Below are positions 11,419-38,256 of a stretch of 64,000 nucleotides of DNA, one piece after another (position 1 is the first letter of the stretch; every line of letters begins with the position of its first letter). Position numbers and translations under genes: made by a program. The notes under the pieces were generated by a model. It did no database searches. It was not told the DNA's origin and saw nothing but the letters and a program-made list of their open reading frames with translations. Source of the stretch: Nocardioides humi (GTDB taxonomy: Bacteria > Actinomycetota > Actinomycetes > Propionibacteriales > Nocardioidaceae); NCBI RefSeq assembly GCF_006494775.1, contig NZ_CP041146.1:5512501-5576500 (forward strand). The letters are read 5' to 3'.

Positions 11419-12598
11419 TCAGGCGGCCTGGCGCCCGAGGACCAGCGCGAGCTGGAGGGTGAGCGCGTCGCGGGGATCGAGGGGTGAGGCCGGTGAGGTC
11501 GGCGATCTGGCCGAGCCGGTAGCGGACCGTGTTGGCGTGCACGAACAGCGCGCGGGCGGTGGCCTCGATGCCGGCGCCGTTGGCGAAGTAGGCCACCAGG
11601 GTCTCGACCAGCTCGCCGCGGGACTCGGCGAGGGGGCGGTAGAGGTGGTCCACCGCCTCGAGGCGGGCGAGGTCGTCGCCGGCGAGGATCCGCTCGGGCA
11701 GCAGGTCGTGGGCGGAGACCGGCCGGGGGGCGTCGGGCCAGCCCACGGCGGCGCGGAGGGCATCGAGCGCGACCCGGGCGGACAGGTGGGCGTGGGCCAG
11801 GTCGGCGGCCACCGGGCCGACGACGACGGCGCCCTCGCCGAAGAGGTGGACGACCGTGCTGGCGTCCTTCTCGAGCTCGTGGACGCCGCCGAGGATCACG
11901 ACGAGGAGGTGGCCCTGGACGGCGCTGAGCGCGTCGAGGCCGTGCTCCTTCGCGGCGTGGCGCACGTCCTCGAAGACGCCGGTGGGGGCGCCGGACGCCT
12001 CGGGCGGGGCGGTGCCGACGACGACCGCGACCTCGCCGCGGGAGGACCAGCCGACGGCGCTGGCCCGGGACAGGACCGACTCGTCGGTCTCGGCCCGGAG
12101 CACGGCGTCGACCGCGAGCGCCTCGAGCCGGGCGTCCCAGCGGCCCCGGACCTCGGCGGCGCGGGCGTAGACCTCGGCGGTCGCGAAGGCGACCTCGCGG
12201 CCGTAGCGGAGGACGGCGGCGTGGACGTCGGGCAGCACCTCGGGGTCGAGCAGCCGCTCGATGTTGGCCTCGACCTCGTCGATGGTGAGCCGGATCAGGT
12301 CGACCGTCTGGTGCAGGTCGACGGTGCCGGCCATGGCCCGCGGCGCGGCGCCGAAGACCTGGCCGACGACGGCGTCGTCCTGCGGGTCGGCCCCGCCGCT
12401 GTCGGCGAACCAGTCCACGAAGCCCTTGACGCCGGCCTGCACGATCATCCCGACGTACGAGCGCTCCTCGGCGCTGAGCTCGCGGAACCAGGGCAGGTCG
12501 GCGTCCATCCGGGCCGTCGCGGCCGTGCTCAGCGACCCTGTGGCGGCGCGGAGCTGACGGGTGGCCTCGGCCCGCTGCGCCGTACCGGTGGGGGACAT
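11419..12598 (-). CDS. PucR-family transcriptional regulator, FasR-like (two apparent frameshifts)
   Basis: Corrected length 393 residues. The C-terminal ~45 residues contain the PucR-type helix-turn-helix, ATARALFVHANTVRYRLGQI, followed by an Asp/Arg-rich PRDALTLQLALVLGR ending. The central part is the GGDEF-like/CdaR region typical of this family. Shortly after the HTH the frame is lost; one extra base in each of the G4 runs 11472-11475 and 11481-11484 restores the family-type C-terminus and the stop at 11419. Lying immediately upstream of fabD in the same orientation, it corresponds in position to the Streptomyces fatty acid activator FasR. It should bind DNA as a dimer near fabD. Confidence 0.82.
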
Positions 12599-12679
12599 GG
12601 CGCAAGCCTATTGCGCGGCGCCCGAAGCGGCTCCTGGGTGTCGGGCGCGTCGCCGGCCGTGGTTGAATCGTGCACCATT

Positions 12680-12706
12680 GCTAGCAGGAGTGAGCATTCT
12701 GCTAGC
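12680..12706 (+). promoter_or_regulatory. Inverted repeat in the hydrolase promoter region, possible operator
   Basis: GCTAGCAG (12680-12687) and CTGCTAGC (12699-12706), 8-bp perfect arms with an 11-bp spacer, lies 22 bp before the ATG of the hydrolase gene and between it and the divergent regulator gene. Binding protein unknown. Confidence 0.5.
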
Positions 12707-12727
12707 CGACGGCGAAGGGGGTGCGTG

Positions 12728-13717
12728 ATGTCGGTGGGGATCGACGACGTCGAGTACGTCACGCTGCACGGCAAGCGCCGTGCGTACGTCAAGAAGGGCA
12801 CCGGGCCGGCCGTCCTGCTGCTGCACGGGCTGGCCTGCGACCACACCACGTGGGCGCAGGTCATCGACGAGCTGGCCGAGAAGTACACGGTCATCGCGCC
12901 CGACCTCCTCGGGCACGGGCTGTCGGACAAGCCGCGGGCCGACTACACGCTCGGCGGCTACGCCAACGGGATGCGCGACCTGCTCACCGTGCTCGGCATC
13001 GACAAGGTCACGGTGGTCGGCCACAGCTTCGGCGGCGGCGTCGCCATGCAGTTCGCCTACCAGTTCCCCGAGCGCACCCAGCGGGTGATGCTCGTCTCGA
13101 CCGGCGGCCTCGGTCCGGAGGTGACGCCGCTGATCAAGCTGATCCAGGTGCCCGGCTGGTTCCGTGTCGTCGGGCTGCTGACGCTCCCGGGGATCCGGCA
13201 CGCCGAGACCTTCGCGCTCCGTGCCGCGGCGGAGTACGGCGACGTGGGGCCGCTGCGCAAGTACACCCGCGACCTCGACGAGATCGCCGACATCGTCGAC
13301 TCCTGGAAGGACCGGCGCACCCGGTTCGCGATCCGCCACCTGGTGCGCGCGGTGATCGACTGGCGGGGCCAGATCGTGACCATGTCCGACCGCGCCTACC
13401 TCAGCGAGGCGATGCCGATGGCGGTGCTGTGGGGCGCCGAGGACCAGGTGATCCCGGTCCTGCACGCCCGCAACGCGGGGGCGCTGGCGCCGGACGTCCG
13501 GGTGGACGTGCTGGCCGACGCCGGCCATTTCCCGCACAAGGACCACCCGGAGGAGTTCGTGCGCCTCCTCGACGACTTCATCTCCACGACCGAGCCGGCG
13601 TCGTACAACCGGGCGCGGTTCCGCCGGATGCTCAAGGCCGGCGCGACCGCGCCCCTCGGCCCGCTGGCCGCCGTCGCCGCGGCCGAGGCGCGCGACGAGG
13701 CGGTCACCCCTGCCTGA
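12728..13717 (+). CDS. Alpha/beta-fold hydrolase
   Basis: A 329-residue cytoplasmic hydrolase. It has LLLHGLACDHTTW for the oxyanion hole, nucleophile elbow VVGHSFGGG with Ser100, acid in WGAEDQVIP and His in DAGHFPHKDHP, a full catalytic triad. The C-terminal ~50 residues (after residue 275) are an Ala/Arg-rich extension beyond the usual fold. ATG at 12728. Transcribed away from the FasR-like gene and followed 24 bp later by a permease gene. The family resembles lipid-ester and meta-cleavage hydrolases; actual substrate unknown. Confidence 0.85.
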   Translation: MSVGIDDVEYVTLHGKRRAYVKKGTGPAVLLLHGLACDHTTWAQVIDELAEKYTVIAPDLLGHGLSDKPRADYTLGGYANGMRDLLTVLGIDKVTVVGHSFGGGVAMQFAYQFPERTQRVMLVSTGGLGPEVTPLIKLIQVPGWFRVVGLLTLPGIRHAETFALRAAAEYGDVGPLRKYTRDLDEIADIVDSWKDRRTRFAIRHLVRAVIDWRGQIVTMSDRAYLSEAMPMAVLWGAEDQVIPVLHARNAGALAPDVRVDVLADAGHFPHKDHPEEFVRLLDDFISTTEPASYNRARFRRMLKAGATAPLGPLAAVAAAEARDEAVTPA

Positions 13718-13741
13718 GCCCGAGTCCGGGGGCGCGCGCCC

Positions 13742-14743
13742 GTGCTGATCACGCTGACGAGCGTCTTCTGCCTGCTCGCGGTCGTGCGCGCGCTGGACGG
13801 CGTGCACTTCTTCGGCGCGGTGGCCGAGCGGATCATCGGGCTGCTGCGCACGCGCCGCTCGCTGGTGCTGGGACTGGTCGGCACGACGCTGGTCGCGTCG
13901 ATGCTGATCACCAACGACATGGCGCTGCTCACCATGCTCCCGCTCACCGCGGTCACGCTGCGCGCGACCGGCAACGACGACCTGCTGGCGTTCGTGTTCG
14001 TGATGGAGACGGTCGCGGCCAACCTGGGCGGGATGATCACGCCCTTCGGCAGCCCGCAGAACCTGTACCTCTACCAGCACTACGCGCTCGGGATCGACGA
14101 CTTCCTGCGGATCATGGCGCTGCCGTTCGCGCTGTCGGCGGTGCTGGTCGTGCTCGCCTGCCTGCCGGTACGGCGTACCCCGCACGAGCCGGTCGCCTTC
14201 CCCCACCGCGTCGCGGTCGGGCGGACGCTGCTCTACCTGGCGCTCTTCGCCGTGACGGTCGCGATCGTGCTCCGGCTGCTGCCGCCCTGGGCCGGCCTCG
14301 GCGTCGTGGCCGTGCTGCTCGTCGCCGACCGCTCGGCGCTGCTGAGGGTGGACTACCTGCTGATCGGGATCCTGGCGGTCTTCTTCGTCGCCGCCGAGGG
14401 CCTGGCCCGGGTCCCGAGCGTCGCGTCGGCCCTGCGCGACCTGCTCGCCGTCGACCCGCTCGTGGTCAGCGCGCTCGGCAGCCAGGTGCTGTCCAATGTG
14501 CCCACCGCGATCCTGGCCGCGCCGTTCACCTCCGAGCACGCGCAGCTGCTCGTCGGCGTGAACGTCGGCGGGGTCGGCACGGTGATCGCGTCGCTGGCGA
14601 GCCTGATCACGCTGCGGCAGTACGCCGTCGTGCGGCCGGGGGAGACCGCGGCGTTCCTGCGGGTGTTCACGGTCGTCAACGTGGCGTTCCTGGTCGTGCT
14701 GCTCGCGGCGACGCGCGGGGCGGTCGCAGCCGGCTGGCTCTAG
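13742..14743 (+). CDS. SLC13/ArsB-NhaD-type anion permease
   Basis: A 333-residue integral membrane protein with about ten hydrophobic segments. The motif SMLITNDMALLTMLPL near residue 60 and the re-entrant LGGMITPFGSPQNLYLY near residue 97 are typical of the ion transporter superfamily (citrate/dicarboxylate/arsenite permeases); the C-terminal repeat has LSNVPTAILAAPF. The GTG start lies 24 bp after the hydrolase gene in the same frame, with the hydrolase stop as the upstream limit. It is short for the family, so an N-terminal helix may be absent. Substrate probably an organic anion. Confidence 0.75.
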   Translation: MLITLTSVFCLLAVVRALDGVHFFGAVAERIIGLLRTRRSLVLGLVGTTLVASMLITNDMALLTMLPLTAVTLRATGNDDLLAFVFVMETVAANLGGMITPFGSPQNLYLYQHYALGIDDFLRIMALPFALSAVLVVLACLPVRRTPHEPVAFPHRVAVGRTLLYLALFAVTVAIVLRLLPPWAGLGVVAVLLVADRSALLRVDYLLIGILAVFFVAAEGLARVPSVASALRDLLAVDPLVVSALGSQVLSNVPTAILAAPFTSEHAQLLVGVNVGGVGTVIASLASLITLRQYAVVRPGETAAFLRVFTVVNVAFLVVLLAATRGAVAAGWL

Positions 14744-14757
14744 GACATGCCCTAGAG
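14738..14757. terminator. Bidirectional terminator hairpin
   Basis: CTCTAGG (14738-14744) and CCTAGAG (14751-14757) form a 7-bp stem with a 6-nt loop between two convergent stop codons; the left arm contains the permease TAG. Confidence 0.55.
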
Positions 14758-15804
14758 TCAGCCGGCCGCGGGCAGCGCCCGCTCCAGCCGCCGCCACCCG
14801 TCGTCGCCGGGGACCGAGACCCGCACCGCTCCGGGCACGCCCAGGGCGGATCCGGGCCGGATCGCGATGCCCGCGGCCGACAGCCTCCGGACCAGCCCGC
14901 GCTCGTCGGGGACGCGGACCAGCACGAAGTTGGCGTGGGACGGCACGACGTCGTAGCCGCGGAGGGCGAAGAGCTCCGTGACCCGGTGCCGCATGTCGAT
15001 CGTGTGGACGCGGACCGCGTCGTGGTGGGTGCGGTCGCGCAACGCCGCGAGGGCGGCGGCCTGGGCCAGCCGGTTGACCGAGAACGGCGCGCGGACGCCG
15101 GCCAGGGTCGCGATCACGTCGGCGGGTGCGACGAGGTAGCCGACGCGCAGCCCGGCGAGGCCGTGGGCCTTGGAGAAGGTGCGGAGGACCGCCAGCCCAC
15201 CGCCCGCCACCAGAGGTACGGCGCTCGCCGCCGCGGGGTCGGGGGCGAAGTCGACGTACGCCTCGTCGACGACGACCAGCCCGGCGGGTGAGCGGTCCCG
15301 GAAGCGGCGGATCTCCTCGCGCCTGACCAGGGTGCCGGTCGGGTTGTGCGGGTTGACGACGTAGGCGATGTCGGCGTCGACGCCGGCCATCGCGCGCAGG
15401 TCGTGGCGGTCACCGGCGAGCGGGACCGGGACGACCGCGCCGCCGACCACCTGGGTGCTGATCTCGTCGACCCGGTAGGCGGGCTCGGCGCACACGGCCG
15501 TGCCGCCGTCGGCGAGGAAGGCGAGCGCGAGCAGGAAGATCAGCTCGTCGGAGCCGTTGCCGACCAGCACCTGGTCGACCGGTACGGCGTGCCGCTCGGC
15601 CAGCGCGGCCCGGAGGTCGGTGGCGAGCGCGTCGGGATAGCGGTGCGCGTCGCGGACCTCGCGCAGCACCGCGTCGACGACGTGGGGGCTGGCGCCGAGG
15701 GCGCACTCGTTCGAGGAGAGCGAGCCGGCGGCGGAGGCTGCCTTGGCGCCGGGGGAGTACGGCGCGAGGCCGGCCAGCCACGGGCGGGCGGTCAGCTCGG
15801 TCAT
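14758..15804 (-). CDS. PLP-dependent aminotransferase, HisC/aromatic type
   Basis: A 348-residue fold-type I class I/II aminotransferase. Visible features are GNGSDELI near residue 83, the PLP-binding NPHNPTGT at 151-158, VDEAYVDF around residue 179 and the Schiff-base Lys212 in [15 protein letters not shown]. It resembles histidinol-phosphate and aromatic amino acid aminotransferases (HisC/Pat). It is the last gene of the 2-oxo-acid dehydrogenase operon, ATG overlapping the lipA stop (ATGA). That location suggests a role in making or consuming a 2-oxo acid rather than in histidine synthesis, but this is inference. Confidence 0.83.
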
Positions 15805-16739
15805 CCGGCCTGCTCGAGGCGTGACCGGCGGGCGGTCTCGTGGAGCCGGCGCGCGCGGTACGACGAACGGACGAGGGGTCCGGACAGCACTCCGGCGAAG
15901 CCGATCTGTTCGGCCTCGGTGGCGAGCTCGACGAACTCCTGGGGCTTGACCCACCGTTCTACGGGGTGGTGGCGCACCGAGGGTCGCAGGTACTGGGTGA
16001 TGGTGACCAGCTCACACCCGGCCTCGTACAGGTCCTGCAGGGCTTGGGAGACCTCCTCGCGGGTCTCGCCCATGCCCAGGATCAGGTTCGACTTCGTGAC
16101 CAGTCCGAACGCCCGTGCCTGGGTGAGCACGTCCAGGGAGCGTTCGTAGCGGAACGCCGGGCGGATCCGCTTGAAGATCCGCGGCACGGTCTCCACGTTG
16201 TGGGCCAGCACCTCGGGGCGGGAGTCGAAGACCTCGGCCAACAGGTCGGGCCGCCCGTTGAAGTCGGGGATCAGGTTCTCCACCCCGGTGTCGGGGTTCA
16301 ACGCGTGGATCGCGCGCACGGTCTCGGCGTAGAGCCAGGCGCCGCCGTCGGGCAGGTCGTCGCGGGCGACGCCGGTGATGGTGGCGTACTTCAACTCCAT
16401 CGCGGCCACGGACTCGGCGACGCGGCGGGGCTCGTCCTTGTCGAGGGGCTGGGGTTTGCCGGTGTCGATCTGGCAGAAGTCGCAGCGTCGGGTGCATTGG
16501 TCGCCGCCGATGAGGAAGGTGGCCTCGCGGTCTTCCCAGCATTCGAAGATGTTGGGACAGCCGGCTTCTTGGCACACGGTGTGGAGTCCTTCGGACTTCA
16601 CCAGTTTCTGCAGGGCGGTGTATTCCGGCCCCATCTTCGCTCGGGTCTTGATCCAGGAGGGTTTGCGCTCGATCGGGGTCTGCGCGTTGCGGACCTCCAG
16701 ACGCAGGAGCTTGCGCCCCTCCGGCGCGGCGGCCCCCAT
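15801..16739 (-). CDS. lipA: Lipoyl synthase
   Basis: Radical SAM enzyme that inserts two sulfurs into protein-bound octanoyl groups. The 312-residue protein has both 4Fe-4S sites: auxiliary cluster Cys56, Cys61 and Cys67 in [13 protein letters not shown], and the radical SAM CX3CX2C at Cys82, Cys86 and Cys89. The C-terminal Arg-Ser-Ser-Tyr sulfur-donor motif (LVRSSYRA) is present. It lies inside the operon for a dissected 2-oxo-acid dehydrogenase, not beside lipB, so it may be a dedicated second copy serving the free lipoyl domain protein at 23.6 kb. Overlaps the E2-core stop by one base (TGATG). Confidence 0.94.
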
Positions 16740-17380
16740 CAGGCCTCCCGCTCGAGGACGGCACGCAGCCCACGGGCGTACCGGCCCGCCTCGGCGCCGT
16801 CGATCACCCGGTGGTCGAAGGTGACGGTGAGGTTGAGCATCCGTCGTACGGCGACCGCCCCCGCGACCGCGACCACCCGCTCGGTCGCGCGGTGCACGCC
16901 GATGATCGCGGTCTGCGGCGGGTTGATCAGCGGCGTCGCCAGGATGCCGCCGCTCCTGCCCGGACTGGTCACGGTGACCGTCGCGCCGCTGATGTCGCGT
17001 GCGGCGATCCGCCCGGCACGCGCCCGCTCCGCGAGGCCCGCGATCTGCGTGGTCAGCTCCTCCGGGGAGTGCGCGAGCGGGTCCCGCAGCACCGGTACGA
17101 CGAGTCCGCGCGGGGTGTCCACGGCGAATCCCACCGCCACGTCGTCGTAGGCGAGGATCTCGTCGCCGACGACATGCGCGTTGAACAGCGGGTGCGCGGA
17201 CGCCAGCTCGGCGACCGCCCGGCACACGTGAGCGAGCAGCAGCCGCAGGTCGACCCGGGTGACATCGCACTCCTCGACGACGTGCACGCCCGGGATCTGC
17301 GCGTGGGACTGGGCCATCCGCTCGGCGATCGCCTTGCGGATTCCGGTCAGGGGAGTGCGGGTCACCGCAGCCGTGGTCAC
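16739..17380 (-). CDS. Stand-alone catalytic core of a 2-oxo-acid dehydrogenase acyltransferase (E2)
   Basis: A 213-residue protein equal to only the C-terminal acyltransferase domain of E2: it begins [23 protein letters not shown] and ends with the catalytic [15 protein letters not shown]. Normal E2 proteins carry one to three lipoyl domains and an E1/E3-binding domain before this core; all are missing. A lipoyl domain is encoded separately at 23492-23734 in the same operon. GTG start overlaps the ABC ATPase stop (GTGA). It should form the oligomeric core that transfers acyl groups from the lipoyl arm to CoA. Confidence 0.88.
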
Positions 17381-18213
17381 GCCGGGCTGCTCTCGGTGAG
17401 CAGCGTGGAGTCGGAGAGACTGCCGCCGGAGAGCGCGGCGAAGCGCTGCTGCAGGTCGCGCGGGGTGAGGTCGGTCAGCTGCTCGCCGCAGACGTCGACG
17501 ACGACCCTGCCCTGGTGCATCATCAGCAGCCGGTCGGCGTGGTCGAGGGCGTGCTTCATGTCGTGGGTGACCATCAGCGTCGTGATCCTGCGCTCCCGGA
17601 CCAGCCGCTCGGTGGCGGCGTTGACGCGTGCCGCGCTGTTGGGATCCAGGGCCGCGACGTGCTCGTCGAGCAGCATCAGCGCCGGTGAGCCGAGGCAGGC
17701 CATGGCCACCGCGATCGCCTGCCGCTGCCCGCCGGACAGCGAGCCGGACACGGCGCCGAGCCGGTTCTCCAGGCCCATGCCGAGCGGCTCGAGCAGCTCC
17801 TGGGCGGCGGCCCGCACCTTCCCCGGGGAGGTACGACGCAGCGGGAACCTCCCGCGCCTCCCGGCGAGCGCGAGCGCGAAGTTCTCCTCGATGGTGAGGT
17901 TGGAGACCATGTTGTCCTGCGGGTTCTGGCGAACCCGCGAGACCAGGCCGATCCGGCGCCACGACGGCAGCGTCGTGACGTCCTGGCCGCGCACGACCAC
18001 CCGGCCCTCGTCCGCGAGCAGGTTGCCCGCGATCATCGAGAGCATGGTCGACTTGCCGGCCCCGTTGGAGCCGATGATCGACACGAAGGTGCCGCCCGCC
18101 ACCTCCAGGCTCAGGTCGTCGACGGCGGTGACCAGCTCGCGGCCGGGGGCGACGAACCGCTTCGTGCACCCGCTCAGTCGCAGGTCGGGGACGAGATCAG
18201 ATGAAGCTGGCAA
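17377..18213 (-). CDS. ABC transporter ATP-binding protein (TrpZ-type)
   Basis: A 278-residue ATPase: Walker [10 protein letters not shown] (48-56), signature LSGGQRQ, Walker B LMLLDEH and switch His in VTHDMKHAL. The [20 protein letters not shown]-loop region is characteristic of the family that works with TrpXY-like uptake systems. It powers the permease encoded just upstream (17-bp overlap) and is followed by the E2 core gene (4-bp overlap). Confidence 0.9.
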
Positions 18214-19147
18214 CGCGGTCCTCCTCGTAGAACCTGGTGCGGGAGATGCGGCGCTGGCGGCGGCCGCTCGTGGTCAGGGCGCTCAGCCAGCTGCGTCCCT
18301 GGCTGCGGACGGCGATCACGACGACCACGACCGCGGCGGTGAGCAGCTGGAGCAGGTTGGGATCGAGCCCGATCTGCAGGGACGTCGCCACCGCGAACCG
18401 GTACACGACGACGCCGGCGACGAGCGCCAGCACGATCGGCAGGATCCGGCTGGAGCGCGTGAAGCTCAGGCCGAGCATCATCCCCGCCAGCCCGATGACG
18501 ATCACCCCGTTCTGGATCGTGACGTCCATGAAGCCCTGGTTGTGCACGACCAGGCCGCCGGAGAGCGCCGCGAGCGCGTTGGCGACGGCGAGGCCGACCG
18601 CCTGGCGCAGCTCGGTGCGGACACCGAGACCGCGCGCGGTCTGGATGTTCTGGCCGGTGGCGACCAGGGACAGGCCGTAGTCGGTGTGCAGGAACCACAG
18701 CAGCACGGCGCACAGCAGGGCCGCGACCACCGCGCCGGTCACGATCGTGCCCTGGCGATAGGTGAGGCCGGCGTCGGCGGCCCACGAGAACGCGGTCGTC
18801 GTACCGAAGAGGGACAGGTTGCCGGAGCTCATGATCACCAGGCACATGGAGTACGCGGCGGTGGCGACCAGGATGCTGGCGAGCAGCACGTTGAGCCGCA
18901 GCTTCATGTGCAGGACGGCGGTCACCAGTCCGGTCGCCGCGCCGGCGAGCATGGCCGCGCCCAGGGAGAGCACGGGATGATGGCCGTCGATGGCGAGCAC
19001 GGCGGCCGTCGACCCGCCGACGCCGAAGGAGCCCTGCAGGGTCAGGTCGGGGAGGCTCATCACCCCCATCGCGAGGTAGATGCCGAGCACCAGCGGGACG
19101 TAGAGCAGTCCCACCTGGACGGCGATCTCGACGAGGTTCCAGATCAT
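18197..19147 (-). CDS. ABC transporter permease (TrpY-type)
   Basis: A 316-residue membrane protein with about eight hydrophobic helices. MGVMSLPDLTLQGSFGVGG near residue 27 and the later GLAGMMLGLSFTRSS are typical of permeases of the TrpXYZ-like class, related to branched-chain amino acid permeases. The C-terminal ~40 residues are basic and cytoplasmic. ATG at 19147 lies 13 bp after the binding-protein gene. Confidence 0.88.
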   Translation of the reverse strand: MIWNLVEIAVQVGLLYVPLVLGIYLAMGVMSLPDLTLQGSFGVGGSTAAVLAIDGHHPVLSLGAAMLAGAATGLVTAVLHMKLRLNVLLASILVATAAYSMCLVIMSSGNLSLFGTTTAFSWAADAGLTYRQGTIVTGAVVAALLCAVLLWFLHTDYGLSLVATGQNIQTARGLGVRTELRQAVGLAVANALAALSGGLVVHNQGFMDVTIQNGVIVIGLAGMMLGLSFTRSSRILPIVLALVAGVVVYRFAVATSLQIGLDPNLLQLLTAAVVVVVIAVRSQGRSWLSALTTSGRRQRRISRTRFYEEDRVASFI

Positions 19148-19160
19148 CGGGGCCCCTTCG

Positions 19161-20137
19161 TCACTGCGTCGTGAGCGCGGCGTCGCGGAGCTCGGCGGGC
19201 ACCTCGATGCCGAGCTCCTCGAGCTTGGTCAGGTTGAGGTCGAAGCCCCCGGTCTCCGGTACGACGACCGCGGTGGTCGCCGGGTCGGCGCCGTCGAGGA
19301 TCGCGAGCACCACCTTGGCGACCTCCTGGCCGACGACGGTGTAGTCGTAGGAGGAGGAGATGACCGCACCCGCTGCGACGGCCTCGCTGGTGCCGCCGTA
19401 GACGGGGAGCTTCGCGTCGTCGGCGACCTTCATCAGGCCCTCGACGGCGCTGATGGTGGTGGTGTCGCCGGGGATCTCGATCGCGTCGACCTTGCCGACC
19501 AGGCTCTGCGCCGCCTGGGTGATGTCCGAGCCGTTGCTGATCGTCGCCTCGACGTACTCGATGCCGAGCTCGTCGAGATGGGCGCGGGCCTTGTCGGCCT
19601 GGGCGTCGCCGGCCGGGTCGCCGAGCTTCCAGATCAGGCCGACCTTGTCGAGGCCGGGGACCAGCTTCGTCATGGCGTCGATGTCGGGGACCGGGTCGAT
19701 CACGTCGGCGACGCCGGTGACGTTGCCGCCGGGCTTCTCCAGGGACGCGACCAGCTTGGCCTCGACCGGCGTCGACGACGCGGCGAAGACGATCGGGATG
19801 TCCCTGGTCGCCGTCGCCATGAGCTGCGCGGCCGAGGTGCCGACCGGGACGATGACGTCGCAGTCGCCGGAGATGAACTTCTGGGCGAGGGTCTGCTCGG
19901 TCGCGGCGTCGGCGTTGGGGTTCTGGACGTCCAGCCTCAACCCGTCGTCCATCGCCTCCTTCAGACCGTCCTTCAGGCCGGACAGGAGGTCGTCGATCAC
20001 GGTCGCGGTGGCGTACTGGTCGACGCACACCTTGGCGTCGGCGGCGTCGGTGGCGGAGCCGCCCCGTCCTCGCCGCAGCCGGCGAGGGCCGTGCAGGCGA
20101 GGACGGACGCGGCGAGGGCGAGGTGACTGCGCTTCAC
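19161..20137 (-). CDS. ABC transporter substrate-binding lipoprotein (TrpX-type, apparent frameshift)
   Basis: Corrected length 325 residues. The GTG start gives a lipoprotein signal KRSHLALAASVLACTALAGC with lipobox LAGC. The mature protein has the Rossmann-like pattern of the TrpX family: DVIVPVGTSAAQLMA, IPIVFAASSTPVEAKLV and GNVTGVADVIDPV. Signal peptide and mature domain are out of frame by one base; a G4/C4 run at 20062-20065 lies at the join and one added base links them. The substrate is probably a small amine, amino acid or oxo acid; TrpX relatives bind aromatic amino acids, but residues for this cannot be judged here. Confidence 0.86.
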
Positions 20138-20196
20138 TGGGACTCCTTGGTGGTGGGTGGAACCCGAGAGACGGCCGGCGCGTGCCGGGCGGGTGG

Positions 20197-21539
20197 TCAT
20201 GCGAGCTCCGCGGCGACCTCGTCGACGGCCGCGGCGAGAGCGGCGACGGTCCGGTCGACGTGCTCGCGCTCGAAGATGTAGGGCGGGCAGATGCCGAACC
20301 GGTCGCCGCGGTAGCCGTCGGCGTTGCCGCTGAACGACGGGTTGATCAGGACGCCGCGCTCCTGGCACGCCCGTGCGATCCGCTTGCTGACGCCCCTCTC
20401 GTAGGGGAAGGGCTCCTTGGTGGCGCGGTCGGCCACGATCTCGATGCCGGTGAGCATGCCGAGGCCGCTGATCTCGCCGACCAGCGGGTGGTCGCCGATC
20501 GCGCTCTCGACCTCGGCGAGGAGGTAGGCGCCCACCTCCCCGGCCCGGCTGACCAGGTCGTGCTTCTGGATGTGGCGGAGCACGGCCAGCCCGACCGCGC
20601 ACGAGAGCGGGTTGCCGCCGTAGGTGAAGCCGTGCTCGAACATGCCGCTGCCCCGGGCCACGGCGTCGTAGATCTCGTTGCGCGCGATGACCGCGCCGAG
20701 CGGCGAGTAGCCGCTGCTGATGCCCTTGCCGCAGGTGATCAGGTCCGGTACGACGCCGAAGTGCTCGATCGCGAAGTTGCGCCCGGTCCGGCCCATGCCG
20801 CTGAGCACCTCGTCGACGATCAGCAGGACGTCGTACCGGTCGCAGATCTCGCGGACCCGCTCGAAGTAGCCCTCGGGCGGCAGCATGCCCATCGCCGCCG
20901 CGCCGACGACCGGCTCGGCGATGAACGCCGCGACGTGCTCGGGGCCCTCGTTGAGGATCACCCGCTCGACGTCGTCGGCGCACGAGAGCGTGCACGCGTC
21001 GCTGCGGGCGCAGAAGGTGCAGCGGTAGCGGTACGGCGGTGCCGCGTGCGCGAACGGCAGCAGCATCGGGGCGTACCCGACCCGCCGCATGACGTGGCCG
21101 GTCGCGGACAGTGCGCCGAGGGTGTTGCCGTGGTAGCTGCGCCAGCGGCCGACGATCTTGTGCTTCGACGGCTTCCCGGACTCCACGAAGTAGTGCCGGG
21201 CCAGCTTGATCGCCGTCTCGTTGGCCTCCGAGCCGCCGGAGGTGAAGCGGACGTAGTCCATGCCGTCCGGCGCGAAGTCGGCGAGCTCGCGGGCCAACTG
21301 CTCCTGGGGCTCGCTGGTGAACTGACCGCAGAAGCTGACCCGCCGGGCCTGCTCGGTCATCGCGTCGATGATCTCCTGCACGCCGTAGCCGACGCTGATC
21401 ACGATGTTGCCGCCGGAGGAGGCGTCGAGGTAGCGGTTGCCCTCGACGTCCCAGACGTGGACGCCGGAGGCGTGGCTGACCGCGGGGCGGGGTGGGTCAG
21501 GTCGCGGTGGAAGACCTGGCTGGCCGTGGGGGTGCTCAT
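20197..21539 (-). CDS. Class III PLP-dependent aminotransferase (apparent frameshift)
   Basis: Corrected length 447 residues. Class III motifs include VRFTSGGSEANETAIKLAR, SYHGNTLGAL, the PLP Asp region LLIVDEVLSGMGRTG and catalytic Lys in DLITCGKGISSGYSPLGA. This class uses omega-amino groups or amines with pyruvate or 2-oxoglutarate. It has an unusual Cys-rich insert, RCTFCARSDACTLSC, around the middle, which could bind a metal. The first ~45 residues are displaced by one base at the G4 runs 21484-21492; correction gives HVWDVEGNRYLDASSGG, the expected N-terminal block. ATG overlaps the E1beta stop (ATGA). Probable first step of the pathway encoded by this operon. Confidence 0.87.
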
Positions 21540-22531
21540 GCGGTCACGGCTCCTTTCACGGGGAGGCGCAGCGCGCGCGCCGCGCCGGCGATGTCGGCGA
21601 CGGAGGGGACGAAGGCGGCCTCGAGGGAGGCGGCGAAGGGCACCGGCGTGGGCGGCGGCTGCAGCAGCCGGACCGCGAAGCCGAGCGGGACGGTGGCGTC
21701 CTGGAGCAGGGCGGCGCACAGGGCGGCCGCGGGACCGGAGCCGGGCCAGGACTCCTCCACCACGAGCAGGGCGCCGGTTCGCTCTGCGCTGCGGCGGACC
21801 AGCCCGGCGTCCAGCGGGGCGAGGGAGCGCAGGTCGACGACCTCGGCCTCGAGGCCGTCGCGAGCCAGCTCCGCCGCGGCCCGCAGCGCACGCTGGACCA
21901 TCAGCCCGGAGCCGGCGATGGTCAGGTCGGCGCCCTCGCGTCGTACGACGGCCGCGCCGAGCGGCACCTCGACGGTGCGGTCCACCTCCGCCCGGGCGCC
22001 GTGGAGCAGGCTCATGTGCTCGAGCAGCACGACCGGGTTGTCGTCGCGGATCGCCGCCCGGGTGAGGGAGTAGGCGTCCTGCGGCGTGGTCGGCATCGCG
22101 ACCTTGAGCCCCGGGAACGACAGGAGCATCCCGGCGCAGCTCTCGGCGTGGCCGCGGTGCGGGCCGATGCCGCACTTGGCACGGACGACGAGCGGTGCGG
22201 TCACCGCGCCTCGCGTGCGGAAGGCGATCGACGCGCCCTCCAGGCCGAGCGGGGTCATGGTGAGCGCGAGGAACTCCGCGAACATCAGGTCGACGACCGG
22301 GCGGCTGCCCGCCATCGCGGCGCCGACCGCCGTGCCGACCATGGCCGCCTCGGAGATGGGGGCGTCGATGACCCGGCCCTGGCCGCCGAACGTGTCCCAC
22401 AGGCCCTTGGCCGACTGCATCGGTCCGCCGAAGACGCCGATGTCCTGACCCATCAGGTAGACGGTGTCGTCCTCGGTCATCGCGTCGGAGATCGCGGCGA
22501 CGATCGCCTCGCTCATGGTCATCCTGGTCAC
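21536..22531 (-). CDS. 2-oxo-acid dehydrogenase E1 component, beta subunit
   Basis: A 331-residue thiamine-diphosphate-dependent E1beta. Diagnostic parts are YLMGQDIGVFGGP, VIDAPISEAAMVGTAVGAAMAG with the conserved Glu, and EVVDLRSLAPLDAGL in the C-terminal domain. With E1alpha it decarboxylates a 2-oxo acid (or cleaves acetoin) and acylates the lipoyl domain. The pyruvate/acetoin/branched-chain subtype is not decidable by eye. GTG start 10 bp after the E1alpha stop. Confidence 0.9.
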   Translation of the reverse strand: MTRMTMSEAIVAAISDAMTEDDTVYLMGQDIGVFGGPMQSAKGLWDTFGGQGRVIDAPISEAAMVGTAVGAAMAGSRPVVDLMFAEFLALTMTPLGLEGASIAFRTRGAVTAPLVVRAKCGIGPHRGHAESCAGMLLSFPGLKVAMPTTPQDAYSLTRAAIRDDNPVVLLEHMSLLHGARAEVDRTVEVPLGAAVVRREGADLTIAGSGLMVQRALRAAAELARDGLEAEVVDLRSLAPLDAGLVRRSAERTGALLVVEESWPGSGPAAALCAALLQDATVPLGFAVRLLQPPPTPVPFAASLEAAFVPSVADIAGAARALRLPVKGAVTA

Positions 22532-22541
22532 GACGCGCTCC

Positions 22542-23495
22542 TCATCGGGGTCTGGTCCTCGGCGTACGCGCGAGGGGTGGGGCGGGCGGGTCCTCCCCGC
22601 GCGCCTTGGCCTGCGCGACGACGGCGTCCATCCGGGCGTGGGCCTGCGCGATCCGGGCGTCGGCGTCGGTGGCGTCGAGCTCGCCGCGGGCGACGAGGAC
22701 CTCCTGGAGTCGGGCGATCGGATCCCGCTCGGCCCAGGCGGCGACCTCCTCGGGCGTGCGATAGGTCTCGGGATCGTTCATGTAGTGACCGCCCATCCGG
22801 TAGGTGAGGGCGTGCACGAACGACGGGCCGCCGCCGGCCCGAGCCCGCTCGACCGCGGTGCCGACGGCGGCGCGGACGGCCAGGACGTCGTTGCCGTCGA
22901 TGTCATGGGCGGTGATGCTGAGCGCGCGGGCCCGGTCGGAGACCCGCTCGCCGGCGAGCGCGACCGCCGACGGGAGCGAGGTGGCGTACTGGTTGTCCTG
23001 GCAGACGTAGACGATCGGCAGCGCGAGCATCGCGGCGAGATTGAGCGACTCGGCGACGATGCCGCTGTTGGCCGTGCCGTCGCCGAACCCGCAGACGGCG
23101 GCCGCGCCGGGCGTGGTGCGGGACAGGTGCAGCGCGGCGCCGGTGGCGTAGGCGACCGACGTTCCGAGCGAGCCCGAGAACATCCCGATCGACCGGGGAC
23201 CCGGCGCGGGGCAGATGTCGCCGCGCCAGTGGCCGCCCGACCGGCTGCCGCCGGTGCCGAAGACCCCGGCGGCGAGGACGTCGGGCGAGGCCCCGCGCTG
23301 GAGGGCGACCGCGCAGGTCCCGCGGAAGTGCGGCGCCACGACGTCGCCCGGGCCCAGGTCGGCGTACGCCCCGACGAAGACGGCCTCCTCGCCGCGGGCC
23401 TCGTGCCAGTGGCCGTTGTGCCGGCACATCGCCTGGTCGAACGCGCGGGCCTCGACCATCGCCTCCCACAGCGCGCGCTCGGTCACGGTGGTCAT
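22542..23495 (-). CDS. 2-oxo-acid dehydrogenase E1 component, alpha subunit
   Basis: A 317-residue E1alpha. It has the thiamine diphosphate motif GFGDGTANSGIVAESLNLAA ending at DNQYATS, and GHYMNDPETYR in the phosphorylation-loop region. EEAVFVGAYADL near the N-terminus matches the usual E1alpha EAxxVG block. The size is that of acetoin-dehydrogenase-like E1alpha rather than the longer branched-chain enzymes. ATG overlaps the lipoyl gene stop (ATGA). Confidence 0.9.
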   Translation of the reverse strand: MTTVTERALWEAMVEARAFDQAMCRHNGHWHEARGEEAVFVGAYADLGPGDVVAPHFRGTCAVALQRGASPDVLAAGVFGTGGSRSGGHWRGDICPAPGPRSIGMFSGSLGTSVAYATGAALHLSRTTPGAAAVCGFGDGTANSGIVAESLNLAAMLALPIVYVCQDNQYATSLPSAVALAGERVSDRARALSITAHDIDGNDVLAVRAAVGTAVERARAGGGPSFVHALTYRMGGHYMNDPETYRTPEEVAAWAERDPIARLQEVLVARGELDATDADARIAQAHARMDAVVAQAKARGEDPPAPPLARTPRTRPR

Positions 23496-23734
23496 GCCGG
23501 TGCGCCGATCTCGGCGATGACCTGGCCGATCCGCACCGTGTCCTCGGGCTCGCAGTGGAGAGCGGCCACGACACCGGCGACCGGAGCCTCGATCTCGAGG
23601 TTGACCTTGTCGGTCATCACCTCGGCGATCGGCTCTCCGGCCGCGACGGTGTCACCGACGGCGCACAGCCAGGTCGCGAGGACGGCCTCCTCGACGCCGT
23701 CGCCCAGCTCTGTGATCGAGACGGAAGTGCTCAC
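23492..23734 (-). CDS. Free-standing lipoyl (biotinyl-lipoyl) domain protein
   Basis: An 80-residue protein made only of a lipoyl domain; Lys43 in EVMTDKVNLEIEAP is the attachment site, flanked by the GVEEAVLATWLCAVGD and EDTVRIGQVIAEIG strands. It is the first gene of the operon and presumably supplies the swinging-arm function missing from the E2 core at 16739-17380, acting much like a glycine-cleavage H protein. GTG start at 23734. The residue after Asp42 is Lys43-Val, fitting lipoate rather than biotin (MKM). Confidence 0.9.
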   Translation of the reverse strand: MSTSVSITELGDGVEEAVLATWLCAVGDTVAAGEPIAEVMTDKVNLEIEAPVAGVVAALHCEPEDTVRIGQVIAEIGAPA

Positions 23735-23771
23735 CGAAGTCCTTTCGGTCGGGAAAGAGAGGTGGTTAGAA

Positions 23772-23803
23772 TGGTGCTACCGATTCATCAAGTGGTACTA
23801 CCA
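23772..23803 (-). promoter_or_regulatory. Two FadR-type operator palindromes for the divergent GntR regulator
   Basis: TGGTGCTACC (23772-23781) and TGGTACTACCA (23793-23803) match the TGGTnnnACCA core recognised by FadR-subfamily GntR proteins. They start 21 bp apart, two helical turns, so bound dimers would sit on the same face. They lie 38-69 bp upstream of the operon's first gene and in the shared divergent promoter region. The remaining intergenic sequence to 23938 shows nothing else clear. Confidence 0.65.
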
Positions 23804-23938
23804 ATCGAGTGAATAGTGATCTGACCCACAGGCGGCTGTCAAGGGGTTCGGGCCGAAAGCCCGAAACGTCCGGCGACCGGCCGCCGGACGACCGGGGCCC
23901 GGCTACAGTCGCTGCGCCCACGCAGGAAAGGCCCACGC

Positions 23939-24642
23939 ATGTCGATCGAGCACGACACCGGCTCCTCGCTCAGCGAGCTCTTCACCGACGACCCGCTGTC
24001 GGAGTCGCTGGCCGCGCTGATCCAGCAGATGCGGCCGGGGACCGGCTGCCCAGCGAGCGGGACCTCGCGGCGCAGCTCGACGTCAGCCGGACCGCGCTGC
24101 GCGACCGGCTCGGCATGCTCGAGGGGCTGGGCGTGCTGCGGCGTCGTACCGGCGCGGGGACGTTCGTCGAGACCCTGCGACCCGATGCGCTCGCCCTCGC
24201 GCTGAACCTCGCGATCAGCAGCTCGCACCTGCCGCTGCCGTCGCTGGAGTCCGTACGGATCGCGCTGGAGCGGCAGGCCGCGGCGGAGGCGGCGCGCCGC
24301 GCCGACCCGGTGCTCATCGCCTACATGAAGCGGGCCATCGACACCATGGCGGCCACCGAGCGTCGTACCGACGTGCTGGACGCGGATCGGGCCTTCCACC
24401 AGTCGCTGCTCCGTGCGGCCGGGAACCCGTCGCTGACCTTCTTCGCCGAGGCGCTGTCGAGCGTGCTCACCAAGGACCTCGCCGATCGCAGCGAGCGGCT
24501 GGAGAGCGAGACCCTGAGCACGTCACGGCAGGCACTGCTGGTCGACCACCACACCCGGATCTACGACGCGATCCTCGCCGGCGACCCGGACGCGGCGATG
24601 CGGGCGGTCGACGAGCACTTCGACGCCATCGGGAGCAGCTGA
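23939..24642 (+). CDS. GntR-family transcriptional regulator, FadR/FCD type (apparent frameshift)
   Basis: Corrected length 234 residues. N-terminal winged helix: LPSERDLAAQLDVSRTALRD, then GVLRRRTGAGTFV. C-terminal FCD ligand domain with metal-type residues in DRAFHQSLLRAAGNPSL and VDHHTRIYDAILAGD. The start codon segment and HTH are separated by a one-base loss in the G4 run 24037-24040. Divergent from the 2-oxo-acid dehydrogenase operon and most likely its repressor, responding to a carboxylate intermediate; that role is inferred from position and operators. Confidence 0.85.
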
Positions 24643-24711: not shown

Positions 24712-27523
24712 TCAGGCGTCGCCGCCCTCCTGCTTGACGCCGGCGACGGCGGTCGGGTCGTCGATGCGGTAGCGCTCCACGGCCTCCTTGACCCGGCCCG
24801 GGTCGATCTCGCCGGCGTCGGCGAGCGCGGCCAGCGCCTGGACGACGACCGACTGCGCGTCGACCTGGAAGAACCGGCGGGCGGCGGGGCGGGTGTCGGC
24901 GAAGCCGAAGCCGTCGGCGCCGAGGACGTGGTAGTCCGCGGGCACCCACTGCGCGATCTGCAGCGGGACGGCGGTCATGTAGTCCGACACGGCGACGACG
25001 GGCGCGTTGGCGGTCGGGCCGTCGCCCAGCGTCTGGGTGACGTACGGCGTCCGGTGGGCCTCGTCCGGGTGGAGGAGGTTCCACTTCTCGGCCGCGATGC
25101 CGTCGCGGGCCAGCTCGTTCCAGGAGGTGACCGACCAGGTCTCCGCCCGGACGCCCCACTCCTCGGCGAGGATGCGCCGGGCCTCGTCGATCCACGGGAA
25201 GCCGACGCCGGAGGCGAGCAGGCGCACCCGCGGCCCTTCGCCGTCGCCCGCGTCGGTCACGCGGTACATGCCCTTGAGCAGGCCGGCGACGTCGAGGCCC
25301 TCCGGCTCGGCGGGCTGGGCGACCGGCTCGTTGTAGACGGTCAGGTAGTAGATGACGTCCTCGCCGCGGGGTGCCCCTCGCCTGCGCCGTACATCCGCTC
25401 CAGGCCGTTGCGCATGATGTGGCCGACCTCGTAGCCGAACGCGGGGTCGTAGTGCACGACCGCCGGGTTCGTCGCCGCGATCAGCGGGGAGTGGCCGTCG
25501 GCGTGCTGCAGGCCCTCGCCGGTGAGCGTCGTGCGGCCGGCGGTGGCGCCGATCAGGAAGCCGCGCGCCAGCTGGTCGGCCATCGCCCAGATCGAGTCGC
25601 CGGTGCGCTGGAAGCCGAACATCGAGTAGAAGATGTAGAACGGGATCATCGGCTCGCCGTGGGTGGCGTACGACGACCCGGCGGCGATCGCCGACGCCAT
25701 CGCGCCGGCCTCGGAGATGCCCTCGTGGAGCATCTGGCCCTGCGCCGACATCTTGTACTGCAGCAGCATGTTGCGGTCGACGGACTCGAACTGCTGGCCG
25801 TGCGGGTCGTAGACCTTCGCCGAGGGGAACATCGCGTCCATGCCGAAGGTGCGGTACTCGTCGGGCGCGATCGGGACGATCCGCTGCCCGATGCCCGGGT
25901 CCTTCATCCAGTCCTTGAGCAGCCGGACGGCGGCCATGGTCGTGGCGACCTTGTGGTTGCCGGCGCCCTTCTTCAGCTCGGCGTACACGCTGTCGCCCGG
26001 CAGGGTGAGCAGGGTGGAGCGGTCGACGCGCTGGGGGAGCGAGCCGCCCAGCTGGCGACGGCGCTCCATCATGTACTCCATCTCGGGGAGTCCGCGCCCG
26101 GGTGGAAGAACGGCGCCGCGCCGGTGGCGTCGTACGCCGTCTCGAGGTCCCGGTCGCTGATCGGCAGGTAGAGCCGGTCGCGGAACTTCTTGAGGTCGTC
26201 CTGGGTCAGCTTCTTCATCTGGTGGGTGGCGTTCTTGCCCTCGAGGGCGTCGATCGTCCAGCCCTTGACGGTGTGCGCGAGGATCACGGTCGGCTGGCCG
26301 ACGTGCTTGGTCGCGGCGTCGAACGCGGCGTACACCTTGCGGTAGTCGTGGCCGCCGCGCGGCAGCTTCTCGATCTGGCGGTCGGTCATGTGCTCGACCA
26401 TCGCCCGCAGCCGCGGGTCGGGACCGAAGAAGTGCTCGCGGTTGTAGGCGCCGGACTCGACCGAGAAGGTCTGGAAGGCGCCGTCGGGCGTGGAGTTCAT
26501 CTGGTTGACGAGCACGCCGTCGACGTCGCGGGCGAGCAGGGCGTCCCACTCGCGGCCCCAGATGACCTTGATGACGTTCCAGCCCGCGCCGCGGAAGTTG
26601 GCCTCGAGCTCCTGGATGATCTTGCCGTTGCCGGTGACCGGGCCGTCGAGCTGCTGCAGGTTGCAGTTGATCACCCAGGTGAGGTTGTCGAGCTCCTCGC
26701 GGGCGGCGATCCGGATCGCGCCCAGCGACTCGGGCTCGGCCATCTCGCCGTCGCCCAGGAACGCCCACACGTGCTGCTGGCTGGTGTCCTTGATGCCGCG
26801 GTTCTGCAGGTAGCGGTTGAACCGCGCCTGGTAGATCGAGTTGATGCCGGTCAGGCCCATCGAGACCGTCGGGAACTCCCAGAAGTCCGGCATCAGCCGG
26901 GGGTGGGGGTACGACGACAGGCCGGCGCCCTTGCCGTGCTGGACCTCCTGGCGGAACCGGAACAGCTGCTCCTCGCTCAGCCGGCCCTCGAGGAACGCCC
27001 GGGCGTAGATGCCGGGGGAGGCGTGGCCCTGGATGAAGATCTGGTCCCCGCCGCCGGGGTGGTCCTTGCCGCGGAAGAAGTGGTTGAAGCCGACCTCGTA
27101 GAGGCTGGCGCTGGACTGGTAGGTGGCGATGTGGCCGCCGACCTCGAGGCCCTTGCGGTTGGCGCTGGAGACCATCACGGCGGCGTTCCAGCGGATGAAC
27201 GCCCGGATCCGGCGCTCGACGTCCTCGTCGCCGGGGAACCACGGCTCCCGCTCGGGCGGGATCGTGTTGATGTAGTCGGTGCTCCGCAGCGCCGGCACCC
27301 CGACCTGGGCCTCGCGGGCCCGCTCGAGGAGGCGCAGCATGACGTAGCGGGCGCGCTCGCGGCCGCGCTCGTCGACCAGGGCGTTGAACGAGTCGATCCA
27401 GTCCTGGGTCTCGTCGGGGTCGATGTCGGGAAGCTGGGTCGGCAGGCCCTCGTGGATGACCGAGGGAGTCGACGCCGCGCGTACGGCGGGGGTGGTGCCG
27501 TCGGTGTTGGTGTCGGAGGTCAC
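24712..27523 (-). CDS. aceE: Pyruvate dehydrogenase E1, homodimeric type (two apparent frameshifts)
   Basis: Homodimeric pyruvate dehydrogenase E1, corrected length 937 residues. Clear blocks are [21 protein letters not shown], the thiamine diphosphate region [13 protein letters not shown] ending in [35 protein letters not shown] and the C-terminal [14 protein letters not shown]. Two one-base losses occur in G4 runs at 26085-26088 (in ADSPEMEYMM) and 25368-25371 (in [15 protein letters not shown]). The GTG start at 27523 is divergent from the DUF3052 gene, the same pairing seen in mycobacteria. This is the housekeeping E1, distinct from the heterotetrameric E1 of the neighbouring operon. Confidence 0.93.
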
Positions 27524-30562: not shown

Positions 30563-30634
30563 GGGCGTATAGCTCAGCGGTAGAGCACCTCGCTTACAAC
30601 GAGGTGGTCGGGGGTTCGATCCCCTCTGCGCCCA
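30563..30634 (+). tRNA. tRNA-Val (anticodon UAC)
   Basis: Cloverleaf folds fully: acceptor GGGCGTA/TGCGCCC (30563-30569 with 30627-30633), D-arm AGCTCAGCGGTAGAGC, anticodon stem CCTCG/CGAGG around loop CTTACAA with TAC at 30595-30597, and T-loop GTTCGATCC. Discriminator A at 30634. The CCA end is not encoded. Confidence 0.97.
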
Positions 30635-30689
30635 CTCTTTCGAGAGGTTTCGCCACGGACCTCGCGGTGGCTGTGCCAAGGTGACGCCC

Positions 30690-38102: not shown

Positions 38103-38130
38103 GGGACCACCGTAGGCTGAGCACTCACAG

Positions 38131-38256
38131 GTCCGCGGTGCAGGAACTCGGTGTGAGACCGGGGCGGTTCCGCCACTGTGATCCCGGCCATGCGCCATGG
38201 CAGGGAGAGCCAGACACTGGTCGCGGACGACACCTACCGATGAGGGGCGCGAACCC
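38131..38256 (+). promoter_or_regulatory. Cobalamin riboswitch upstream of cobN
   Basis: P1 pairing GTCCGCG (38131-38137) with CGCGGAC (38222-38228) encloses the conserved GGAACTCGGTGTGA, GCCACTG (38172-38178) and the B12-box-like AGCCAGACACTGG (38208-38220). Downstream, GGGG/CCCC around 38244-38256 lies directly before the Shine-Dalgarno GAGGAGG of cobN, so control is likely at translation start. Adenosylcobalamin should repress. Confidence 0.92.

Follow-up and report, generated by a model that had tools for sequence, protein, structure and literature searches.

Does a 2-oxo-acid dehydrogenase need its lipoyl domain to be tethered to E2? Textbook enzymes of this kind rely on lipoyl domains that are attached to a large E2 core, and in OdhA, the known exception, the domains used are tethered to another E2. 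The question is raised by a locus of Nocardioides humi, the genome of which is one 6.22-Mb contig. Bases 5,512,501–5,576,500 of this contig (64,000 nucleotides, henceforth referred to as the window) hold a minus-strand run of ten genes, read from position 23734 to position 14758. These encode a free-standing lipoyl-domain protein (Lip), E1 alpha, E1 beta, a class III aminotransferase (AT3), the substrate-binding lipoprotein (SBP), permease and ATPase of an ATP-binding cassette (ABC) importer, an E2 core, a lipoyl synthase (LipA) and a HisC-like aminotransferase. A first-pass annotation of this DNA had named the same ten genes in the same order, and all were found so. The sequence alone establishes the parts and their order, the bare E2, the free Lip, the conserved split between the two, a divergent regulator and a set of paired sites next to it. 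We consider it likely, with a probability of about 0.75, that these genes encode a 2-oxo-acid dehydrogenase that would use a diffusible lipoyl carrier and borrow its E3.

A ten-gene run with a free lipoyl domain and a bare E2 core

The nine junctions of the run comprise six overlaps of 1–17 bp (4 bp at Lip/E1 alpha, E1 beta/AT3, ATPase/E2 and LipA/HisC, 17 bp at permease/ATPase and 1 bp at E2/LipA), gaps of 10 bp (E1 alpha/E1 beta) and 13 bp (SBP/permease), and one gap of 59 bp (AT3/SBP). The overlaps and gaps of 13 bp or less described previously were thus recovered, and the gap before the binding-protein gene measures 59 bp rather than the 58 bp given. From this spacing, we infer that the ten genes are co-transcribed. 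A scan of positions 14600–24000, limited to simple consensus types, detected no sigma-70-type promoter or terminator pattern.

Lip (23492–23734, minus strand, like the other nine genes) is a separate gene product of 80 aa, as had been claimed. It matches PF00364 with 69.9 bits (cut-off 22.1) and carries the lipoyl-lysine motif DKV at Lys43. E1 alpha (22542–23495, 317 aa) and E1 beta (21536–22531, 331 aa) have the domains expected of a thiamine diphosphate (ThDP)-dependent 2-oxo-acid decarboxylase, with PF00676 (191 bits), PF02779 and PF02780 all above cut-off. The nearest solved chain to E1 alpha is 1um9_A, a 2-oxo acid dehydrogenase alpha subunit (E 3e-33), and E1 beta scores 231.1 bits against PRK09212, under the cut-off of 321.

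E2 (16739–17380, 213 aa) matches PF00198 alone (198.1 bits). Residues 5–211 cover positions 3–226 of the 232 in the model, and the Pfam domain search found neither a lipoyl domain nor the peripheral subunit-binding domain PF02817. The protein keeps the motif DHRVIDG, in which H190, D194 and G195 are invariant over 36 aligned rows. Its predicted structure (mean predicted local distance difference test, pLDDT, 83.8; predicted template modelling score, pTM, 0.80) superposes nearly end to end on solved E2 cores, with a TMq of 0.86 to 1scz. By motif and predicted fold, E2 is a complete acyltransferase core, in agreement with the first-pass description of a core without lipoyl or peripheral-binding domain. 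The E2 frame is intact and overlaps the ATPase gene, and therefore it is not a larger gene cut short by error.

The bare E2 belongs to a branch of lipoyl-less enzymes

We searched for E2 homologues among proteins of 0.55–1.75 times the length of E2 and obtained 1424 matches at E ≤ 1e-10, of which 120 were listed. Among these 120, the proteins P0001–P0043 and P0045 are 211–244 aa long and have PF00198 alone; none has PF02817 in precomputed domain matches. The listed free E2s include proteins of Arthrobacter bambusae, Nocardioides sp. Soil796 and Brevibacterium siliguriense. Of the 82 catalytic domains placed in a tree, 43 came from free and 31 from fused E2s, 4 from other short ones and 4 from E2s of the N. 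humi genome. The 43 free E2s form one side of a single branch with ultrafast bootstrap (UFBoot) 94 and Shimodaira–Hasegawa-like approximate likelihood ratio test (SH-aLRT) 95, a branch recovered in 94% of 200 bootstrap trees that falls just below the tool's star mark. Of 62 fused rows, 31 (every other one) entered the tree, and the 10 rows of intermediate length were all left out. A quick tree of 124 rows was concordant, save for one faulty 78-residue slice (own_L012), which was left out of the 82-domain tree; P0038, in which the catalytic motif is misplaced, was left out of both. Four further short E2s (P0060, P0081, P0094 and P0095) group among the fused E2s.

The segment between the motifs 'ExDVT' and 'NAH' (a pattern unmatched in 8 of the 120 rows) is 25 residues long in the free E2s and in the neighbouring fused E2s versus 38–39 residues in four longer-loop relatives. 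Because the free and neighbouring fused forms share the 25-residue segment, a short-loop fused E2 of the Actinomycetota is the most likely ancestor of the free E2.

Inspected by eye, a proline-led hydrophobic C-terminal end is missing in the window E2 and in 42 of 43 free tails (P0001–P0043 and P0045, less P0038); the tail of P0041 (APTEALA) resembles such an end. It is kept in L010, L011, L012 and L013 of the same genome and absent in the fused L009, and the tail of L016 was not picked up by the search pattern. The missing end suggests that E2 may stop at a bare trimer rather than form a 24- or 60-subunit core. Actinobacterial AceF is described as having become a trimer in a different way, through a C-terminal insertion (PMC10415282).

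The split is conserved in five loci

Five loci were read whole: the window, Nocardioides sp. LHD-245 (L018), Pimelobacter simplex (L019), a locus of the same genus (L077) and Actinomadura chibensis (L020). L018–L020 were translated and L077 was checked by tblastn only. Of 41 loci laid out, L018–L020 alone were read as having the free form; for the remaining 38 the comparison rested on tblastn, with open reading frames added for L049. By E2 identity the nearest kin of N. humi are LHD-245 (91%) and P. simplex (88%). In all five whole loci Lip, E1 alpha, E1 beta, AT3, SBP, permease, ATPase and E2 follow in the same order, so that Lip heads the operon and six genes lie between Lip and E2, and a divergent FCD/GntR regulator is present. 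LipA occurs in four of the five (not in L020), as does the HisC-like gene (not in L018). Identities between the window and L020 are 78% for AT3, 75% for the permease, 73% for the regulator, 70% for the ATPase, 69% for SBP, 68% for E1 beta, 67% for Lip, 65% for E1 alpha, 59% for E2 and 38% for the HisC-like protein. Domain content and this gene order support the assignment of E1, E2 and Lip to one 2-oxo-acid dehydrogenase set.

The first-pass annotation had named co-occurrence of the lipoyl protein and the E2 core as a check, and the pairing probably extends beyond the five loci. A search with Lip (E ≤ 1e-8) returned 26 proteins of 78–86 aa, followed by 5 of 90–134 aa. Compared by eye, 4 of the 26 come with a longest contig of exactly the same size as that of a free E2 (181181 bases in Arthrobacter, and 8407, 8266 and 12101 bases). 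Because the sizes are identical, these four Lip/E2 pairs probably lie on one contig each.

A plasmid origin was considered and rejected: in a comparison of the Arthrobacter free E2 (P0030) with plasmids, 237 records matched, all below 60% identity, and the best listed was 37%.

A second split set in the same genome

Another locus of N. humi (L017, genome bases 646000–665000) encodes, on the minus strand, an 81-aa lipoyl protein (11441–11686 of the locus), a PF00198-only E2 (11757–12407), E1 beta (12410–13426) and E1 alpha (13423–14400). The same strand holds an ABC importer with a PF13407 binding protein, a lipoamide dehydrogenase (497.9 bits, cut-off 408.8), SelD (above the TIGR00476 cut-off), an acyl-CoA dehydrogenase, a thiolase-like gene and an enoyl-CoA-hydratase-like gene; a TetR-like gene and a LipA gene are divergent (hydratase and TetR named by eye). 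The E2 of this set reads DHRVVNG, and its nearest relatives (226–235 aa) are 47, 44 and 41% identical. In the tree it groups with other E2s of the genome, outside the free branch and on long branches. Because it belongs to another branch than the window E2, E2 and lipoyl domain probably parted at least twice.

Frameshifts in the assembly

Several frames in and beside the operon are broken. AT3 (20197–21539; PF00202, 284.7 bits) and SBP (19161–20137; PF04392, 190.2 bits) each have an N-terminal stretch in another frame, in SBP past the signal peptide, and each shows a one-base gap in the alignment with P. simplex. The listed frame of the regulator matches its relatives only from residue 77 (about position 24037) onward, and the neighbouring aceE (24712–27523) is broken over frames. 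AT3, SBP and the regulator are open in L018, L019 and L020, and aceE is open in L018 and L019 as far as those loci extend. Because the same genes are open in relatives, the frameshifts are probably errors of an under-polished assembly.

Proposed mechanism and alternatives

We propose that the ABC importer takes up an amino compound, which the class III aminotransferase, in some strains together with a HisC/ArAT-like enzyme, would convert to a 2-oxo acid. E1 would decarboxylate this acid with ThDP and then reductively acylate the lipoyl group on Lip. Lip would diffuse to a presumed bare E2 trimer, where the acyl group would be handed to coenzyme A (CoA), and would be reoxidised by a lipoamide dehydrogenase from elsewhere in the genome, as happens with the H protein of glycine cleavage. 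Lip itself would be lipoylated by the usual LipB/LipA route, with the operon LipA as added dosage, and the FCD/GntR regulator probably represses the operon until substrate or product appears. As the first-pass annotation had stated, no E3 gene is found among the ten. Candidates for a shared enzyme exist: four proteins encoded at other places in the genome, including that of the second split set, score at or above the TIGR01350 cut-off. Without a peripheral-binding domain, E1 and E3 are not anchored to E2 in the known way. For OdhA, lipoyl groups supplied in trans suffice (PMC10415282). We lean slightly towards the further view that the covalent swinging arm has been abandoned here, and that a diffusible carrier, a bare E2 trimer and a borrowed E3 make up a separate architectural class reached at least twice independently.

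Several observations weigh against this interpretation. The system is rare, being found in 2 of 391 genomes sampled from the order (E ≤ 1e-60) and 1 of 394 from the class, and in 4 of 215 from the genus and 2 of 250 from the family of the Actinomadura centre (E ≤ 1e-58); we note that these samples overlap and that each counts its centre's own genome. For context, at E ≤ 1e-115 N. humi itself is the one genome among 325 sampled from the class to hold a relative of AT3. Relatives of SBP at E ≤ 1e-45 are present in two of 396 genomes sampled from the phylum, N. humi's own and G1282; in the stretch of G1282 that was compared, tblastn with the operon proteins matched only the three transporter parts. 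In Actinomadura G879 (L073, 7527–10727) only the HisC-like gene, E2, the ATPase and the end of the permease remain. The free E2 of this genome has lost its partners, because the upstream genes are gone and the best E1 alpha match genome-wide is 37%. In Pseudalkalibacillus (L049) the importer and E1 are accompanied by an E2 of the fused form, and the split is therefore not required for such a pathway. Should the frameshifts in AT3, SBP and the regulator be genuine, the module of this N. humi strain would be non-functional.

Three other explanations were weighed against a diffusible carrier with a borrowed E3. E2 might be served in trans by the lipoyl domains of a housekeeping E2, with Lip only auxiliary, in the way that OdhA/KGD of actinobacteria uses AceF (PMC10415282); the window E2 has no tether and the genome has other lipoyl-bearing E2 frames. 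We regard this as unlikely, since Lip comes first at each of the five loci, overlaps E1 alpha in the window, is better conserved than E2 between the window and L020 (67% versus 59%) and probably shares contigs with E2 in other organisms. Somewhat less likely still, the acyl group could go to another thiol acceptor such as an acyl carrier protein, in a biosynthetic loading reaction. This would fit the shortened 'ExDVT'–'NAH' segment (25 versus 38–39 residues) and the setting in L018, where aceE borders the operon on one side and, on the other, a PucR-like gene and a fabD-fabH-acpP-fabF-like cluster follow two genes away (read by eye). However, the short segment is also found in fused E2s, no fab-like genes were seen by eye among the L020 neighbours, and an importer with an FCD/GntR regulator suits uptake and breakdown better.

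That a fused E2 in an intact operon merely looks split, through sequencing errors or decay, is very improbable. It would be in keeping with the frameshifts (three or more within the operon or next to it, and further ones in aceE) and with the decayed remnant in Actinomadura G879, but the same six genes part Lip from E2 at four other loci, the frames are open in L018, L019 and L020 over the parts translated, and the short form is common to the 43 E2s of the free branch. We therefore rejected sequencing error of a fused E2 as the source of the split, and return to the reading of a free carrier serving a bare E2.

Aminotransferases, importer and substrate

The first-pass annotation had counted two aminotransferases, and both are present in the window. 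The HisC-like protein (14758–15804, 348 aa, subfamily I-beta), which falls just short of the TIGR01141 HisC cut-off (273.7 versus 276.55 bits), is no constant member of the set, being missing at LHD-245 and replaced in Actinomadura by a relative with 38% (L020) or 40% (L073) identity. Because AT3 is the most conserved product and the HisC-like protein the least (78% versus 38% to L020), AT3 is probably the core transaminase and the HisC-like protein accessory. The nearest solved chain to the I-beta aminotransferase of L020 is the Mycobacterium tuberculosis aromatic aminotransferase Rv3772, which prefers Phe, Tyr and Trp (PMC4703992). At the Rv3772 pocket positions Val86, Phe110, Leu112 and Phe246, mapped by hand, the window protein has Asp, Tyr, Val and Phe, and the L020 protein Leu, Tyr, Ala and Phe.

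The importer comprises SBP, a permease (18197–19147, 316 aa; PF02653, 62.6 bits) and an ATPase (17377–18213, 278 aa; PF00005, 94.5 bits). Its assignment to the TrpXYZ type holds at the level of the family only. The window SBP scores 212.1 bits against the TrpX model NF041285 (cut-off 390), counting the open 289 aa only, with the N-terminal part in another frame. The intact L018 orthologue matches the solved structures 3lkv, 3lft and 6hni, and the three solved relatives hold Phe, Trp and Tyr (PMC6816091). Like the aromatic binders TrpX and CD0873, the window SBP belongs to the ABC_sub_bind family and, mapped by hand, has Tyr at the equivalent of VC_1101 Tyr-262, a residue said to block Trp, where the Trp binder has Gln (PMC6816091). 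At the position of SP1069 Gln-284, the Gln taken as a mark of TrpXYZ is replaced by Tyr in all five aligned operon SBPs. Unlike TrpX and CD0873, the window SBP has Thr at the second selectivity position (Ala-246/Glu-263; hand mapping), and the motifs HP, TDP and DNT, shared by VC_1101, SP1069 and the L049 protein, read AT, STP and DTT in all five operon SBPs. These changes speak against an aromatic ligand, and the head-group contacts may differ from those of the aromatic binders.

PaaA is a marker of phenylacetyl-CoA breakdown. It was found above cut-off in both Actinomadura genomes and in none of the four genomes of the Nocardioides group (one weak match of 96 bits), which argues against a simple phenylalanine-to-phenylacetyl-CoA route. 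Phe or Tyr as substrate was not adopted, given this result, the changed SBP motifs and the missing HisC-like gene at LHD-245. That the substrate is an aromatic or arylalkyl amino compound at all is a tentative proposal, with odds of about one in three.

Two loci with related importers were also observed. In Pseudalkalibacillus caeni (L049, 2235–12124) a Leu/Phe-dehydrogenase-like gene and E1 alpha, E1 beta, a fused E2 and E3 lie downstream of a TrpXYZ-like importer (dehydrogenase and E3 identified by eye). The two positions to which CD0873 owes its tyrosine binding are occupied by Glu and Tyr in the SBP of this importer. In N. humi itself, L104 (4437–11042) encodes a paralogous TrpX-like importer with an SBP 44–47% identical. 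Two proteins are encoded next to it, one with an HD domain and a weak likeness to phosphonate HD oxygenases (45 bits, cut-off 214.6), the other resembling D-amino-acid dehydrogenases (189.9 bits, cut-off 383), and these neighbours faintly hint at a different amine.

The operon LipA is a near-copy of the housekeeping enzyme

LipA (15801–16739, 312 aa) scores 327.3 bits against TIGR00510 (cut-off 310.25). The first-pass annotation had regarded it as dedicated to the operon, and this was not borne out. It is 96% identical in protein and 96.5% in DNA to the housekeeping LipA (L074, 8282–9226), and the A. chibensis operon has none, that genome encoding one full LipA. A specialised LipA was thus rejected, and, the protein being a near-copy of the housekeeping enzyme, it would supply an extra dose of ordinary activity. 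N. humi, LHD-245 and P. simplex have three full copies each, plus, as in A. chibensis, one weak partial match; the third N. humi copy (307.2 bits, cut-off 310.25) is the one at the second split set. In the relative L076, a LipB gene adjoins the housekeeping lipA.

The likeness between the copies is uneven. In the window, operon and housekeeping lipA are 99–100% identical over alignment columns 100–900, 94% before and 56% after, and the between-species pairs compared are mostly 81–96% identical over the same columns. The Pimelobacter paralogues are 99–100% identical over columns 200–600, 65–67% before, 92–94% after and 67% in the last block. The LHD-245 paralogues are 86–91% identical, with 58% in the last block, which points to no recent conversion there. 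Lineage-specific gene conversion is the likeliest source of this likeness. Recent re-duplication is less likely for Pimelobacter, because the tract edge is sharp; for the window it stands as the alternative. One value does not fit the conversion picture, the 99% identity of the LHD-245 and Pimelobacter operon lipA over columns 300–400.

A divergent regulator and paired sites

The GntR/FadR-type regulator with an FCD domain (23809–24642, plus strand; PF07729, 83.6 bits; PF00392, 46.1 bits) has the same position and orientation in L018, L019, L020 and L077. Between it and the operon lie the paired sites TGGTAGTACCA and GGTAGCACCA (23772–23803, minus strand). A single copy of the pair is present in the window, and none was found in 100 shuffles. 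In an alignment of the four relatives it recurs with small changes in L018, L019 and L077 and is least exact in L020. Its shape fits FadR-family operators, and the two sites are a probable operator pair.

Elsewhere in the window, we observed 23S (clipped by the window start) and 5S rRNA genes and a tRNA-Val gene (1–2968 and 30563–30635), and a cobalamin riboswitch slightly above the Rfam gathering score (38119–38239; 35.1 versus 31.5).

Comparison with known systems

Canonical pyruvate dehydrogenase, branched-chain keto-acid dehydrogenase and acetoin dehydrogenase share with the window set a ThDP-dependent E1 alpha/beta, an E2 core with DHRxxDG, a lipoyl domain with DKV and an E3 in the genome. 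In contrast to them, the window has a separate lipoyl domain, no peripheral subunit-binding domain, no proline-led hydrophobic C-terminus and no E3 in the operon. In the glycine cleavage system (H, P, T and L proteins) a small lipoylated carrier works between separate enzymes, and in this the window set would resemble it. Here, however, the carrier is an E2-type lipoyl domain of 80 aa, its partners are E1 and E2, the product would be an acyl-CoA, and profile searches found no P- or T-protein among the ten operon products.

Our search of titles and abstract openings in the open-licence PMC literature turned up no description of a 2-oxo-acid dehydrogenase that has a free lipoyl protein of its own; OdhA and LbpA were the closest systems found. 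Actinobacterial OdhA/KGD likewise has E2 activity without a lipoyl domain of its own, served in trans, but its E2 is fused to E1 and uses the lipoyl domains of AceF, whereas in the window E1 and E2 are separate and an own Lip heads the operon (PMC10415282). LbpA of Hdr-like sulfur oxidation likewise consists of one lipoyl domain, and its gene lies with those of its metabolic partners and with lipoylation genes; it is GcvH-like and accompanied by hdr genes and its own ligases, in contrast to E1/E2 and an ordinary LipA in the window (PMC6067878).

With E1, carrier and E2 encoded as separate small proteins of one operon, the need for tethering in active-site coupling becomes testable with native parts. 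The locus also offers a rule of thumb for annotation: in Actinomycetota, a protein of about 210–245 aa with PF00198 alone is not necessarily the product of a truncated gene when its operon also encodes a PF00364 protein of about 80 aa.

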